Below are positions 167 through 60,096 of a stretch of 61,305 bases of DNA, one piece after another. The stretch comes from an uncultured Bacteroidia bacterium. GTDB lineage: Bacteria > Bacteroidota > Bacteroidia > Bacteroidales > UBA932. The translations under genes were made by a program, and so were the position numbers. The notes below the pieces were generated by a model. The model saw only the letters and a program-made list of their open reading frames with translations, was not told where the DNA came from and searched no databases. How positions within the stretch are numbered: the first letter of the stretch is position 1; every line of letters begins with the position of its first letter. The stretch is from NCBI GenBank assembly GCA_902801885.1, contig CADCJX010000014.1, forward strand, positions 1-61,305. The letters are read 5' to 3'.

Positions 167-2401
167 TCAGTCCTTCCAGACTTTGAGATATTCCTGAAGG
201 GCCCACATCTCGTCGCGGTATTTTGCCGCCTGGCTGAAGTCCAGTTCAGCCGCCGAATGCTCCATTCTGCGTTTGTCTTCCGCAATCGTCTTCTCGATCT
301 GCACCCTGCTCATAGCCCTGATCACCGGATCCTGCAGCACAGCTGCAAGATCGGCCTTGACATAGCCGTCCACGTAGGCCGTGTTGCCTTCGCGCTTAGA
401 GTCATGCCCGAGTCCAACGGGAACAGTGCCTCGGCCAAGCTCGCTCGGATTGGGAATATATGTCGGGTCTGACACCGAATCCTTGGCACTCACCCTTCCG
501 CTCGGCCCGTTCGCTATCCTCGGATTGACCGCCTTCTCTCCTCCTTTCTCCATCTGCCCTCCTGTCATCCTGAGCGAAGCGAAGGATCTATCCTCCGCTC
601 CTCCGTACAGCTCCGACACAAGGATATTCCTCTTGACCTCCACCTGCTGCGGTGTGATCCCATGGACCTTGTTGTACTCCATCTGCTTGGAACGCCGCCT
701 GTTCGTCTCCCGGATTGTTTCTTCCATAGATTCCGTGACGGTGTCTGCATACATGATCACGAGCCCGTTGACATTTCTCGCCGCGCGTCCCGCTGTCTGG
801 GTCAGCGCCCTACCTGAACGCAGGAATCCTTCCTTGTCAGCATCCAGTATGGCTACCAGGGAGACCGTAGGAATGTCCAATCCCTCCCTCAGGAGGTTCA
901 CTCCCACCAGCACGTCGAACAGGCCGTTCTTGAAGTCCTCTATGATCTCGACCCTCTCTGAGGTGTCCACGTCTGAGTGAATGTACCTCACGCGCACCCC
1001 GATACGGTCCAGATAGTTGGTAAGTTCCTCGGCCATCCTCTTCGTCAGGGTAGTCACGAGAATCCTTTCGTCACGTTCCGCCCTCTGGCGTATCTCTTCA
1101 ACCAGGTCGTCCACCTGGTTGTTCGTAGGCCTCACCTCGATCGGCGGGTCGAGCAATCCGGTAGGCCTTACAACCTGTTCAACCACAAGCCCTTCCGAGC
1201 GTTCAAGTTCGTAGTCGGCCGGGGTAGCGCTGACATAGACCTTCTGGCCCGTTATCTCGTTGAATTCGTCGAACTTGAGAGGCCTGTTGTCAGCTGCCGC
1301 CGGGAGGCGGAACCCATATTCAACGAGCACGGACTTGCGGGAATGGTCGCCACCGTACATTGCCCTGATCTGGGGGATGGTGACATGGCTCTCATCGATA
1401 AAGGTTATGAAATCGTTGGGGAAGTAGTCTATCAGGCAGAAAGGCCTCTGTCCGGGCTTTCGGCCGTCGAGGTAACGGGAATAGTTCTCTATTCCAGGGC
1501 AGTAGCCCATCTCCTTGATCATCTCCAGGTCATTCTCGACCCTCTGCTGCAGTCGCTTCGCCTCCAGACCCTTGCCGATCTCGTTGAAGTAGTCGATCTG
1601 GGCCTTCAGGTCGTCCTGGATCATGCTGACGGCCTTGATGCTCCGTTCCCTTGTCGTTACGAAGTTGGTGGCCGGGAAGATGGGAACCTCTTCAAGGTCC
1701 TCGATCCTGGCTCCTGTGACCGGGTCGATCAGGGACAGGCTCTCGATCTCGTCTCCGAAGAACTCGATGCGGACGGCTTCGTCCGATCCTCCCAAGAACA
1801 CGTCCACCGTGTCTCCTCGCACCCTGAAGGTTCCGCGTTTGAAATCTACCTCGGTGCGGCTGTAGTTGGCGTCCACAAGGTGGTAGAGGAGGCGGGTCAG
1901 AGACCTTGTCTCGCCCCTTTTGACGGTTACCGACTGGGCATGGAAGTCCTCCGGATTGCCGATGCCGTAGAGGCATGACACGCTGGAGACCACGATCACA
2001 TCCCTTCTCCCGGACATCAGTGCTGAGGCTGCGCTGAGCCTTAGTTTGTCGATCTGGTCGTTGATGCTGAGGTCCTTCTCGATGTAGGTGTCCGTAGTGG
2101 GCAGATAGGCTTCCGGCTGATAGTAGTCGTAATAGGATACGAAATACTCAACCGCGTTTGACGGGAAGAAACTCTTGAATTCGCCGTAAAGCTGTGCGGC
2201 TAGGGTCTTGTTGTGGCTGAGCACCAGGGCCGGTCTCTGGAGCTTCTCGATGACGTTGGCCATCGTAAAGGTCTTTCCGGATCCGGTCACACCGAGCAGT
2301 GTGACGTCACCGACGCCCTGCTCCAAGGCCTTGCAGAGCCCTTTGATAGCCTCCGGCTGGTCTCCGGAAGGCTTGTATGTCGATTCGAGCCTGAATTGCA
2401 T
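167..2401 (-). CDS. uvrB: UvrABC system protein B, with enlarged C-terminal linker
   Basis: DNA-damage recognition helicase of nucleotide excision repair; works with UvrA and UvrC in the cytoplasm. Visible: Walker A GVTGSGKT (about residues 37-44), the damage-probing beta-hairpin region with [10 protein letters not shown] (about 90-99), the DESH box, helicase motifs such as QTAGRAARN, and a C-terminal UVR domain (about 700-740). At 744 aa it is longer than the usual 660-690 aa. The excess lies in the linker between the helicase core and the UVR domain and includes, at residues 605-613, a translated copy of a dispersed repeat (SFASLRMT). The linker is flexible in the family, so function is probably kept. 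It starts 3 bases after the sialidase-like gene and probably shares its transcript. Confidence 0.97.
564..589 (+). repeat. Dispersed 26-bp repeat, copy 1 (inside uvrB)
   Basis: Contains the core CTGAGCGAAGCGAAGGATC. The same unit recurs at 36945-36970 and, in reverse orientation with one extra base, at 59433-59459. On the minus strand it is read in frame within uvrB as part of the peptide [11 protein letters not shown]. The GAAGCGAAGG part is nearly self-overlapping (CGAAG twice). Confidence 0.85.
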
Positions 2402-6358: not shown

Positions 6359-6483
6359 GCAATCGGAAGTGGTCCCTTCGGAACCGTCTCGCTCCGCTCG
6401 ACCCCACCGTTCGCTTCGCTCCGGTCCCCCCTCTTAACGTGCCGAGGGTGGCAGTGGTTCCTGGAGGGACCACTTCTGATTGC
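6359..6483. repeat. Large imperfect palindrome, element A
   Basis: Outer arms of 19 bases (6359-6377 and 6465-6483) pair with a single G/A difference around GGAAGTGGTCCC; GGAACC (6380-6385) pairs further in with GGTTCC (6456-6461), and CCCTC (6429-6433) can pair with GAGGG (6444-6448). The inside carries TTCGCTTCGCTCCGG followed by a C-rich run, resembling boxes inside the two palindromes at 46989-47152 and 47166-47328, although the outer arms are unrelated in sequence. Confidence 0.75.
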
Positions 6484-14710: not shown

Positions 14711-16210
14711 ATGAAATATTACGATAAGCTTATATTCGAACTGTCCAAGGAAGGCCGTACCGGCTATTCCTTCGGAAAAATGACGATTCCTGAGCCTGCC
14801 GAGGGATCCATTCCTGCCAACCTTTTCAGGAGCGAGGCTCCTGCATTGCCGCAGGTGAGTGAGATCGACGTGGTCCGTCACTACACGAACCTCTCCCAGA
14901 TGAACTTCGGTGTCGACACCGGATTCTATCCCCTTGGAAGCTGCACCATGAAGTACAACCCCAAGATCAACGAGGAGATTGCCGGCATGAAGGGTTTCCA
15001 GGCCCTGCATCCGCTTCAGCCTGCATGCACCGTTCAGGGTGCCCTTGAGGTCTACTACAACATGGAGAAGTCCCTTTCGGCTCTCACCGGCATGGCTGGG
15101 TTCACTTTCAACCCTTGCGCCGGAGCCCATGGTGAGCTGACGGGCCTTATGATCATGCGCCAGTACCATCTGCTTCGCGGTGACCTGAAGAGGACGAAGG
15201 TGATAGTCCCGGACAGCGCCCATGGCACCAACCCTGCCAGCGCAGCTGTTTGTGGACTCGACGTCGTGGTTGTCAAGTCCAATGCGGACGGTCTTGTGGA
15301 TGTGGCTGACCTCAAGCCGCTTCTCGGCAATGACATCGCTGGTATCATGATGACCAATCCCAACACCCTCGGCCTGTTCGAGAAGGAGATAGGGGAGATC
15401 GCAGGACTCGTCCATGAGTGCGGTGGCCTTCTCTATTACGATGGAGCCAACATGAACCCTTTGATCGGAATGGTCCGTCCCGGCGACATGGGATTCGACA
15501 TCATGCATCTCAACCTCCACAAGTCGTTCTCCACTCCTCACGGTGGTGGCGGTCCCGGTTCGGGTCCTGTCGGAGTGTGCGAGAAACTCGTTCCTTATCT
15601 CCCTGTCCCGAAGGTCGTCAAGAAGGAAGACGGTACCTTCGACGTGGTATGCAGTGACGAGAAGAGCGCCGGTCAGGTTTCCGGTTTCCTCGGAAACTTC
15701 GGTGTTATCCTCAGGGCGTATGCTTATATCCTGACTCTTGGAAAGCAGAATGTTAAGCTGGCCGGCAAGTTTGCGACCCTGGCTGCCAACTATATCAAGG
15801 AAAGCCTTAAGGATTGCTACAAACTGCCCATCCCTTCTATCTGCAAGCATGAGTTCGTCTTCGACGGGCTTGTGGATGACGGATCCAGGAAGGCTGCAGA
15901 CGGTACTCTCGAAAGGGAGGGTGCAACGACTCTCGACGTGGCCAAGAGGCTGCTCGATTTCGGTTTCCATGCCCCTACCATCTATTTCCCTCTGCTCTTC
16001 CATCAGGCCATTATGATAGAGCCCACCGAGACTGAGTCGCTTGAGACTCTCGATGCCTTTATCGAGGTCATGAGGGAGATAGCTGCTGAGGCCGCCGAGG
16101 ATCCTGCTATCCTCAAGAGCGCTCCTCACAACGCTCCGATCACACGTCCGGATGAGACTACGGCTGCCCGCCAGCCGGTCCTCAAGTTCCAGGACGAGAC
16201 CGTTTCCTAG
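14711..16210 (+). CDS. gcvPB: Glycine dehydrogenase (decarboxylating) subunit 2
   Basis: PLP-bearing half of the split P protein. 499 aa. The Schiff-base lysine is Lys271 in NLHKSFSTPHGGGGPGSGPVG; other landmarks are GFYPLGSCTMKYNP, AGAHGELTGLMI and DSAHGTNPASA. It closes the gcv operon and is followed by a strong terminator at 16237-16271. The L protein (dihydrolipoyl dehydrogenase) is not in this window; glyA, which works in the same one-carbon pathway, lies about 31 kb away. Confidence 0.97.
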   Translation: MKYYDKLIFELSKEGRTGYSFGKMTIPEPAEGSIPANLFRSEAPALPQVSEIDVVRHYTNLSQMNFGVDTGFYPLGSCTMKYNPKINEEIAGMKGFQALHPLQPACTVQGALEVYYNMEKSLSALTGMAGFTFNPCAGAHGELTGLMIMRQYHLLRGDLKRTKVIVPDSAHGTNPASAAVCGLDVVVVKSNADGLVDVADLKPLLGNDIAGIMMTNPNTLGLFEKEIGEIAGLVHECGGLLYYDGANMNPLIGMVRPGDMGFDIMHLNLHKSFSTPHGGGGPGSGPVGVCEKLVPYLPVPKVVKKEDGTFDVVCSDEKSAGQVSGFLGNFGVILRAYAYILTLGKQNVKLAGKFATLAANYIKESLKDCYKLPIPSICKHEFVFDGLVDDGSRKAADGTLEREGATTLDVAKRLLDFGFHAPTIYFPLLFHQAIMIEPTETESLETLDAFIEVMREIAAEAAEDPAILKSAPHNAPITRPDETTAARQPVLKFQDETVS

Positions 16211-16236
16211 AAGTAGTTGAAATATAATCTGTTATG

Positions 16237-16271
16237 AAAAACGCATAGGTATTTTTCCTATGCGTTTTTTG
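16237..16271 (+). terminator. Intrinsic terminator of the gcv operon
   Basis: AAAACGCATAGG (16237-16248) pairs perfectly with CCTATGCGTTTT (16257-16268) and is followed by more T. Confidence 0.93.
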
Positions 16272-16358
16272 TATCAGTCCAGATTTCAATAAGTTACATG
16301 AAACGCTGTTTAGGGAAGCTTTTCCCTTCAAAAATTTTGCGGATTCAAGGAATGTTGT

Positions 16359-46946: not shown

Positions 46947-46977
46947 AAAAGGTGACCCTCCCGGTCACCTTTTTTTA
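46947..46977 (+). terminator. Intrinsic terminator of the OmpA-family gene
   Basis: AAAAGGTGACC (46947-46957) pairs perfectly with GGTCACCTTTT (46963-46973), followed by more T. Confidence 0.95.
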
Positions 46978-46988
46978 TGACATCCTAC

Positions 46989-47152
46989 GGATGAATGAAT
47001 ATATCCCCGGAGGACTCCGTTCCGCTTCGCTCCACTCCGGACCCTCCCACTGTATCCTTCGTCCTGCTAACGCAGGACTCGTCTCCAGCGGGCCCCTCCC
47101 GCTTCCCGTGAGCGCGGGAGCTCACGCCTCCGGGGGATATATTCATTCATCC
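46989..47152 (+). repeat. Large structured palindrome, element B
   Basis: Outer arms of about 25 bases (46989-47013 and 47127-47152) pair with a single bulge around GAATGAATATATCCCC. Inside: TTCCGCTTCGCTCC, then CCGGACCCTCCCACTG, a perfect hairpin GTCCTGC-TAAC-GCAGGAC, then CAGCGGGCCCCTCCC and a hairpin CGTGAGC...GCTCACG. CCCACTG can pair with CAGCGGG. Box order matches element C read on the other strand. Confidence 0.85.
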
Positions 47153-47165
47153 GAACGAAGCAGTG

Positions 47166-47328
47166 CGGTATGGGGACTCGCTCCTGAAAGGCCTGTCCAC
47201 CCCCGGACAGGGGCAGGGGGAGGGGCCCATTGGAAGCAAGTTATCGCGGAGCGATGACGCAGATGACAATGGGAGGGGCCGGAGCGAACGCAGTGAGCGA
47301 AGTCCTTCAGGAGTGAGTCCCCATACCG
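47166..47328 (-). repeat. Large structured palindrome, element C
   Basis: Outer arms (47166-47191 and 47304-47328) pair around GTATGGGGACTC. On the minus strand the inside reads ACTTCGCT..GTTCGCTCC, GGCCCCTCCCATTG, a hairpin ATCGC-TCC-GCGAT, then CAATGGGCCCCTCCC. CCCATTG pairs perfectly with CAATGGG. It is homologous in box order to element B but inverted, and 13 bases separate the two. A further small hairpin CCTGTCC/GGACAGG lies at 47192-47211. Confidence 0.85.
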
Positions 47329-58740: not shown

Positions 58741-60096
58741 ATGCAGAACAAGAAAAACCTTACGTTCTGGGATATGTGGAACCTGAGTTTCGGGTTCTTC
58801 GGCGTGCAGATTGCCTACGCCCTCCAGAGTGCGAACATCAGCAGGATATTCGCGACCCTCGGTGCCGACCCGCATCAGCTTAGCTTCTTCTGGATCCTTC
58901 CTCCTCTGATGGGAATGATAGTCCAGCCACTCATTGGAAAGTATTCAGACCGCACATGGTGCAAGATGGGCCGCAGGAAACCATATCTCCTTGTCGGAGC
59001 CATCGTGGCCGTGCTGGTGATGATATTCCTTCCCAATGCCGGCAACCTCAGTTTCTCTTCAAGGCTCATCCTTGGCCTGAACGGTGCCATGTGGTTCGGC
59101 CTTTTCTCCCTCATATTCCTTGACACATCCATCAACGTGGCCATGCAGCCTTTCAAGATGATGGTCGGTGACATGGTGAACGAGGAGCAGAAGGCCCAGG
59201 CCTATTCAATCCAGTCTCTACTGTGCAACGCGGGAAGTCTCGTAGGGTACCTCTTCCCGATCTTCTTCACCTGGATAGGAATAGCCAATACCGCTCCTAA
59301 GGGTCAGATCCCCCAGTCGGTGATCTGGAGCTTCTACTGCGGGGCCGCCATCCTGATTGCCTGCGTCATGTACACCTTCTTGAAAGTCAAGGAGATGAAT
59401 CCTCAGGAATATGCTGAATTCCATGGGATTGAGGATCCTTCGGCTTCGCTCAGGATGACAGAGAAGGGGGGCAGGAAGACAAAAGAGGGGCTTTTCAGCC
59501 TCCTGTTCCATGCACCGAAGACTTTCTGGACTGTCGGACTCGTCCAGTTCTTCTGCTGGGCAGCCTTCATGTACATGTGGACTTATTCGAACGGTACCAT
59601 CGCAGCCAACTGCTGGAATGCCACCGACACTGCTTCCGAAGGTTATCAGGCTGCAGGTAACTGGGTCGGAGTGGTCTTTGCCATCCAGGCCGTGGGCTCG
59701 ATCCTGTGGGCCATCGTCATTCCCAAGTTCAAGTCCCTCAAGCTCGCTTATGTTGTGAGTCTGCTGCTTGGAGCCATAGGATTCATCTCAGTGGCCTTCG
59801 TACACAACCAGTACGTACTCTTTCTCTCCTATTTCCTTATAGGAGCAGCCTGGGCAGCAATGCTTGCACTTCCTTTCACCTTGCTGACCAATTCGCTCAG
59901 CGGCGAGCACATGGGCAGCTACCTCGGCCTCTTCAACTGCACCATCTGCCTTCCCCAGATCATAGCTGCTGCCCTCGGCGGCGTGATCCTGAAGCTCTGC
60001 GGTGGAGTCCAGGCCAACATGATGATCATCGCCGGAGTTCTCCTCATTCTCGGTGCGGTCAGTGTACGTTTCGTAACAGAGAAACATTCTAAATAG
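58741..60096 (+). CDS. MFS sugar transporter (SLC45/GPH-like) with repeat-derived loop insert
   Basis: Inner-membrane carrier, 451 aa, about twelve transmembrane helices. SLC45-type signatures: FWDMWNLSFGFFGVQIAYALQSANISRIF, PPLMGMIVQPLIGKYSDRTWCKMGRRKPYL (loop 2-3 with the RRxP motif) and LPFTLLTNSLSGEHMGSYLGLFN. Such transporters in Bacteroidota carry maltose, sucrose or related disaccharides; the neighbouring GH13 gene supports maltodextrin (inference). In the central cytoplasmic loop, residues about 231-240 (EDPSASLRMT) are encoded by dispersed repeat copy 3. The frame is kept. Confidence 0.92.
   Translation: MQNKKNLTFWDMWNLSFGFFGVQIAYALQSANISRIFATLGADPHQLSFFWILPPLMGMIVQPLIGKYSDRTWCKMGRRKPYLLVGAIVAVLVMIFLPNAGNLSFSSRLILGLNGAMWFGLFSLIFLDTSINVAMQPFKMMVGDMVNEEQKAQAYSIQSLLCNAGSLVGYLFPIFFTWIGIANTAPKGQIPQSVIWSFYCGAAILIACVMYTFLKVKEMNPQEYAEFHGIEDPSASLRMTEKGGRKTKEGLFSLLFHAPKTFWTVGLVQFFCWAAFMYMWTYSNGTIAANCWNATDTASEGYQAAGNWVGVVFAIQAVGSILWAIVIPKFKSLKLAYVVSLLLGAIGFISVAFVHNQYVLFLSYFLIGAAWAAMLALPFTLLTNSLSGEHMGSYLGLFNCTICLPQIIAAALGGVILKLCGGVQANMMIIAGVLLILGAVSVRFVTEKHSK
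59433..59459 (-). repeat. Dispersed repeat, copy 3 (inside the MFS transporter gene)
   Basis: Reverse orientation relative to copies 1 and 2; contains CTTCGCTCAGGATGAC and one extra G. Read in frame as PSASLRMT in a cytoplasmic loop. Confidence 0.85.

Follow-up and report, generated by a model that had tools for sequence, protein, structure and literature searches.

Two large palindromes (elements B and C), which lie in the interval from a gene of the ompA family (Pfam OmpA) to glyA (Pfam SHMT), and a third element of the same family (A) are probably copies of a non-autonomous, MITE-like selfish element, which is apparently mobile and would be recognized as a folded strand. The window, i.e. 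the whole stretch of DNA that was analyzed, is a contig (C14) of 61,305 nucleotides from the 2.46-Mb genome of an uncultured Bacteroidia bacterium (G000). The analysis revealed a dispersed family with a common fold that includes a pseudoknot, with stems that are free in sequence and paired, with sites lacking the element and with in-frame insertions in both orientations.

Element B (46988–47153, plus strand; R1 match at 47090–47127) is a palindrome of the long type. Its outer stem consists of a 25-nt left arm (46988–47012), fully paired, except for one bulge, with a 26-nt right arm (47128–47153). Between the arms lie box 1, CCCTCCC (47042–47048), hairpin H2 with the tip GTCCTGC/GCAGGAC in its variable stem (47061–47078), box 2, GGGCCCCTCCC (47090–47100), and hairpin H3, GTGAGC/GCTCAC (47108–47125); CCCGC at 47098–47102 forms a pseudoknot with GCGGG of the H3 loop (47114–47118). 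Both H3 and the pseudoknot show covariation within the family. Element C (47166–47328, minus strand), also of the long type, faces B at a distance of 12 bases, not 13 as given in a first-pass annotation of this DNA. Its left arm (5′ on the minus strand; 47306–47328) is paired at 22 of 23 positions with the right arm (47166–47188), box 2, GGGCCCCTCCC, is located at 47218–47228, and the pseudoknot, likewise with family covariation, joins CCCCC (47216–47220) to GGGGG of the H3 loop (47200–47204). Element A (6359–6483, plus strand; arms at 6359–6377 and 6465–6483) belongs to the T1 group and carries the CCCC variant of the box; its site is also filled in the congeneric genome G033.

The sequence, the arms and the folding z-scores confirmed that two large palindromes are present where the first-pass annotation had placed them, and the boxes described as common to B and C proved to be real. 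DNA folding gave z-scores of −7.0 for B (plus strand) and −6.5 for C (minus strand), with none of 200 shuffles folding as well, and RNA folds of B (z of −7.0 for the minus and −7.7 for the plus strand) revealed no clear strand preference. When the window was screened strictly for palindromes (arms ≥ 18 nt with one mismatch, spacing of 60–160 nt), A and B only were returned, C falling below the filter; the same filter found no palindrome in 20 mononucleotide shuffles of the window. The ompA gene possesses its own hairpin followed by a T run (46947–46978), upstream of B and C. Tested as Rho-independent terminators, B and C appeared as multi-hairpin units of about 165 bp with no T run, which supports the earlier view that they are not ordinary terminators. 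At the Rfam gathering score the whole window contained two tRNAs only, and a further search added one match far under the cut-off.

The plus-strand order of the element, 5′ to 3′, is as follows: an arm of about 24 nt, ACC, hairpin H1, box 1 (CCCTCCC or CCCC), hairpin H2, box 2 (GGGCCCCTCCC or GGTCCCCCC), hairpin H3, GGT and the complementary arm. At the base of H2, the CCC of box 1 can pair with the GGG of box 2, as in B; this hairpin can be as short as a few bases or as long as about 55, with a stem sequence that varies by copy. The H3 loop is six bases long. The boxes, the outer arms, the middle helix and the inner hairpin of this anatomy had been recognized before, whereas the pseudoknot and the insertions within genes were absent from the earlier description.

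Pairing in H3 was observed in 92.9% of cells, compared with 71.7% in shuffled alignments, with a covariation of 0.455 versus 0.120 and 43 two-sided changes versus 14.5 in shuffles (107 matches, 51 distinct rows), the alignment having been fitted to the H3 helix, a bias in its favor. The pseudoknot, in which the end of box 2 pairs with the H3 loop, was absent from the covariance model; it is paired in 97.6% of cells and shows two-sided changes at two positions (CCCTC/GAGGG, CCCGC/GCGGG as in B, CCCCC/GGGGG as in C, and CCCGT/ACGGG). Taken together, H3 and the pseudoknot are paired in 95.3% of cells versus 79.9% in shuffles, with a covariation of 0.369 versus 0.107, and slid versions of both helices together did not exceed 51% pairing. 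Counted with the pseudoknot included, pair types were no more numerous than in shuffles (249/500). These compensating changes, together with those in the arms at sites shared by two species (see below), bear out the claim of free but paired stems. There is likewise support for the idea that conservation concerns the fold and not the sequence of the stems; relative to their G033 counterparts, B and C retain the boxes and differ in the arms and in the H2 and H3 stems. The compensation reported for the middle helix was upheld in part: one position shows a genuine two-sided change (C-G versus T-A), but another has an A.C mismatch in B against A-T in C. On the minus strand, the mismatch in B is a G.T wobble.

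The alignments of 167 distinct arm pairs comprise 3505 matching and 298 mismatched positions. Folding of the minus strand would make G.T wobbles of 109 mismatches and folding of the plus strand of 62, the remaining 127 being neither (p = 4e-4). The first pair of H2, read on the plus strand, is A-T in 24, A-C in 34 and G-C in 2 of 61 segments, corresponding to T-A, T.G and C-G on the minus strand. The strand bias of H2 (35 versus 2) derives almost entirely from one position and may reflect common descent. Since G.T wobbles are more frequent on the minus strand, the sequences lean towards this being the strand that folds, and it probably is.

A search of the own genome with GGGCCCCTCCC identified eight places, two of which are B and C, with one layout in all. 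The MAFFT alignment of full cores was poor, and therefore the covariance model, built from 10 copies, covers only the right half of the element and may miss diverged copies. The first-pass annotation had named a covariance search for more members as a check, and this search gave 30 matches in the own genome at E ≤ 1 (29 at E ≤ 0.016). The 61 genomes searched comprised the own genome, 36 of the same genus and 24 from other families of the order; the family was present in 31 of the 37 genus genomes and in none of the 24 others. An exact 27-base pattern of one subtype was detected in at least 110 stretches in genome_contigs; the 80 titles among the matches listed were all those of Bacteroidales/Bacteroidia MAGs, whose hosts, where named, were ruminants. 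This pattern had no match in viral contigs, nor did the B–C region in plasmid and phage records searched by blastn. The family consists of small (about 110–180 bp), dispersed elements and, among the 61 genomes searched with the model, is present in one Bacteroidales genus and absent from the other families of the order. The sets of copies compared here exclude one G016 match lacking its locus and one G017 match (C76), and the arm counts exclude L040 (no arms) and L022 (score 9.5).

Open reading frames contain 16 of the 28 elements of the own genome with clear arms, 10 of them antisense and 6 sense; the other 12 are intergenic, six of these between convergent genes. Two more in-frame matches (L022 and L040) have weak or absent arms. 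The host genes include those that we take, from their sequences, to be miaA, argC, argD, ispH, gltD, recQ, ftsK and manA. Unrelated proteins of this genome, as well as frames of G033 and G017, contain variants of one peptide, GGTGAERSEASGGAERSEA. At L014/L035 (contig C15 of G000, 29.4–29.6k), two elements in opposite orientation lie adjacent to each other in one gene, presumably for a substrate-binding-protein-like product, with an open frame of 489 residues. Two in-frame copies are also present in a G017 frame (L254), which we assume to be methionine synthase-like, and each of three GH3-like frames (L242, L364 and L396) is also found at two elements.

The predicted ArgD protein contains 45 extra residues, compared with one in a solved homologue, and this extra length equals the whole palindrome; at coding sites in general, the extra length is approximately that of the whole palindrome. 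The gltD orthologue of G033 lacks the insert, as does ispH in 10 of 12 genomes (15 were given, and in three the gene was not found by motif); the two filled ispH genes, of G000 and G017, carry the element in opposite orientations. Inserts of this family enter unrelated protein genes in frame, and orthologues without the insert exist. The subtypes differ in location: of the 98 copies judged, 25 of 26 T2 copies lie within an open frame, compared with 11 of 72 T1 copies. The length of in-frame cores is 2 modulo 3 in 32 of 36 cases, and the 62 intergenic cores fall into all three modulo-3 classes (29, 17 and 16).

A scan for filled and short versions of one site gave 93 candidate comparisons, many of them redundant, and 21 pairs were inspected. 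In the three closest intergenic pairs (L372 versus L401, and L398 and L405, both versus L385; flanks 86–95% alike), the site without the element holds neither arm nor core, from which we infer gains rather than losses. A 39-nt palindrome of other sequence, CTCCGGAGG...CCTCCGGAG, was found at L079 (compared with the element-bearing L045), and in the P-loop region of the G033 miaA gene (L102) a short palindrome, AGAGGGAGGTGTCCCCTCT, is present where G000 carries an element. The miaA palindrome is possibly the scar of a lost copy; both palindromes fit either scars or a preference of the element for hairpins. At shared sites the core was in opposite orientation in 13 of 29 pairwise comparisons, which are not independent of one another and a few of which may concern neighbors rather than one site; inversion through the arms or renewed insertion, either would suffice for such a reversal.

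The distribution of elements around glyA does not support the notion of a fixed RNA gene belonging to the ompA–glyA interval: R1 matches are present near glyA at only 4 of 30 congeneric loci (own, G033, G020 and G017), some of the 30 being cut by contig ends. The order and orientation of B and C are the same in G000 and G033, and the copy in G020 is reversed. No target site duplication was found (best z of 2.7 among 63 tests on 76 elements). Since the family is dispersed, occurs in both orientations and in genes as well as in gaps, and relatives have sites without the element, it behaves as a mobile repeat.

The arms were compared within and between copies. Complementarity of at least 13 was recorded for 105 of 117 elements, compared with 0.5% of 585 mismatched pairs (largest 16), and the two arms of one element are on average 0.875 alike (113 elements). 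Pairs of T1 copies whose loci differ and whose cores are 95% or more alike have arms 0.58 alike (random 24-mers, 0.54), and none of the 282 such pairs reaches 0.8; T2 arms at different loci are 0.71–0.73 alike, with 4 of 40 pairs at 0.8 or above. For both subtypes together (flanks below 0.62, cores at least 95% alike) the value is 0.595, with 4 of 363 pairs at 0.8 or above, only 63 of these pairs having flanks below 0.5. The 17 pairs with flanks of at least 0.70 mostly keep their arms (left arm 0.62–1.0, median 0.92). Since T1 arms are unlike across loci yet kept at shared flanks, in this group they follow the site and not the core.

Capture of the arms from elsewhere in the genome was rejected, as none of the arms of the 28 own elements was copied at 90% or more in the 830 kb sampled (34% of the genome; matches beside element cores set aside); the matches beside cores, compared separately, reached 0.74 at best. 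The single perfect match obtained was that of an element to itself. The arm of L405 has no second copy in its 2.4-Mb genome at up to 3 mismatches (one insertion). The possibility that the arms are hairpins themselves was also discarded, given a small excess against letter shuffles and none that was clear against column shuffles (largest z 2.5 of 48).

In G016, 14 of 21 fetched copies share one arm sequence by eye, several of them with a common outer flank; when similarity was measured without gaps, a partner at 0.7 or above was found for 13 of the 19 copies that bear arms, and 11 of these 13 belong to the shared-arm group. Across the family a weak consensus is recognizable in the arms, with purines prevailing outside and pyrimidines inside, and a few same-genome pairs reach 0.70–0.79. 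Two contig-end copies of G017 with arms 0.96 similar are probably one copy split by assembly. Where the same site was compared between species (19 pairs), 23 columns had changed on both sides and were still paired, 11 of them in one pair with an indel-shifted register, so that a cautious count is 12 in 18 pairs; 40 columns had changed on one side, and 4 on both sides without pairing. T2 arms owe their likeness at least in part to inheritance, or else to coding constraint.

Under the explanation that we favor for B, C and A, a putative trans-acting enzyme would recognize the folded single strand, probably the minus strand, and insert it. The T1 arms would come neither from the parent copy nor from the target, and would be made or rewritten around insertion. 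The first arm would be of new sequence and the second copied from it by fold-back or template-switch synthesis, at or before insertion, after which palindrome (template-switch) correction or selection would keep the two paired. We put forward only tentatively that a new complementary arm pair arises at insertion and that the family has split into mainly intergenic and frame-compatible groups. No autonomous partner was recognized between paired elements, since the frames located there look ordinary; from their sequences we take them to be metH, a GH3 glycosidase gene, a transketolase gene and carB. The own genome contains two Y1 transposase genes (L009 and L010), one of them just under the Pfam cut-off. 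Y1_Tnp matches were obtained in 26 of 31 element-bearing genomes, compared with 1 of 6 that lack the element (Fisher p 0.003, Spearman 0.46), a weak association based on the 37 genomes present in both searches (four of 41, outside the element search, were left out) and uncorrected for kinship or completeness.

The family could instead be an ordinary MITE, with constrained core boxes and pseudoknot and with inherited, fast-drifting terminal repeats that are paired by template-switch correction. This is possible, although we regard it as doubtful. The likeness of T2 arms between loci, the G016 subfamily with common arms and the compensated double changes in same-site arms all agree with it, and inherited arms that drift fast would also account for the weak arm consensus and for the handful of similar arms within one genome. 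The T2 arm sharing that emerged when all pairs were counted by subtype lowers the odds of arm renewal and of the favored explanation and raises those of inherited drift. However, T1 cores at least 95% alike carry nearly unrelated arms and same-site arms change little, and no parent with the L405 arm is present in its genome. A different origin of the arms, in which the core was inserted into an existing hairpin or terminator, or was flanked by an inverted target duplication, so that the arms are host sequence, has been largely refuted and is highly improbable. Some arms resemble split terminators (L012, L013), the outermost bases at ispH and miaA looked native at first, and the short palindrome at the L079 site without the element raised the odds of this origin; the three closest sites without the element, however, hold neither arm, and the extra length in argD is the whole palindrome. 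Inverted target duplication, which the ispH, miaA and argD junctions had suggested, was rejected for the same absence of both arms from the closest sites.

As regards the enzyme, a RAYT-type Y1 (HUH) transposase, reading the hairpins of one strand, may move the elements as REP/BIME-like repeats, which we consider unlikely. The co-occurrence with Y1_Tnp points in this direction, and recognition of single-strand hairpins would fit the wobble bias; the association, however, carries the lack of correction mentioned above, G014 has 14 copies and no Y1 match (70% completeness), and the two Y1 genes of the own genome carry repeats of another kind at their sides, none of them from the present family. 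There is very little probability that B and C are duplicates of a conserved cis-regulator or folded RNA, e.g. a 3′-UTR element acting on its neighbors. The covarying stems and pseudoknot, the conserved arrangement of B and C at glyA in G000 and G033, and the location of half of the intergenic G000 copies between convergent genes are what such an element would show. Against this, copies occupy open frames in both orientations, sites differ by species (26 of 30 glyA loci have no match), the G020 copy near glyA is reversed, and only tRNA families reached the Rfam gathering score.

Terminal inverted repeats normally constitute a fixed address that is read by a transposase. Ends that differ between copies yet are mutually complementary, around a conserved pseudoknot, imply recognition of shape, perhaps with the writing of new ends. 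The ends of MITEs are common to their copies and match a transposase, and target duplications are common. The present elements resemble MITEs in being small, in having many dispersed copies with no transposase gene inside, and in the existence of sites without the element in relatives; they differ in that the ends of T1 copies are specific to each copy, those of T2 and of the G016 subfamily being shared in part, and in that the tests on 76 elements yielded no target duplication. The MITEs Correia/NEMIS, ERIC and RUP are described, in the text consulted, as small and non-autonomous, with terminal inverted repeats and stable folds, and as both intergenic and intragenic (PMC2229807).

In behavior, the family is closest to the Rickettsia palindromic elements (RPEs), a likeness drawn from published descriptions. 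According to the portions of the reports consulted, RPEs are palindromes of about 105–150 bp, located in frame in unrelated protein genes and also in intergenic regions (PMC2229807, PMC10969869), with a listed terminal repeat of 12 bp (PMC2229807). The present family belongs to another phylum and has arms of about 24 bp in place of the 12-bp terminal repeat of RPEs. RPEs are not known to possess a pseudoknot or arms specific to each copy. The family is distinguished by these two features from RPEs and MITEs as characterized in the texts consulted, and no description of such a family in Bacteroidales was found in the open-access literature searched, as far as its text was available. It provides a second bacterial phylum with palindromes entering housekeeping proteins in frame. 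With a subtype, T2, that is nearly confined to open frames, the family opens the origin of protein-coding selfish DNA to testing across many genomes.

Other folded repeats are more distant. REP/BIME hairpins are read as single strands by Y1 enzymes. REPs are given as 20–40 bp in the text consulted (PMC3733652). REP/BIME repeats with RAYT and the present family are alike in Y1 co-occurrence and differ in the repeats that flank the own Y1 genes. In integron attC sites, which are variable in sequence, the fold of the bottom strand is recognized; the copies examined here are single, interspersed and in many cases inside genes, unlike attC. Double-hairpin elements have variable stems. The palindromes of Volvox mitochondrial DNA are, in the text consulted, apparently selfish, found in both orientations, and intergenic or intronic with one exception (PMC2670323). 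Organelle palindromic and double-hairpin elements are palindromic, apparently selfish and present in both orientations, as here, but organellar, unlike the present family.

Repeats of other types were also observed. A hairpin repeat with AACGCATAGG/CCTATGCGTTTT is located at 16201–16305 of the window; a similar hairpin lies on both sides of the L010 Y1 gene and also in L231, and it may be the repeat family of this transposase. In G017 (L101 and L131), miaA contains a different, G-rich repeat, CCGAAGGCTTTGGGAACATTCCCCC...CCAGGGGGG, and gltD a similar one; they are perhaps members of a second family that enters coding genes. Near both ends of the window (555–585 and 59440–59470) there are CTTCGGCTTCGCTCAGGATGACAG-type sequences, which perhaps represent a further dispersed repeat.
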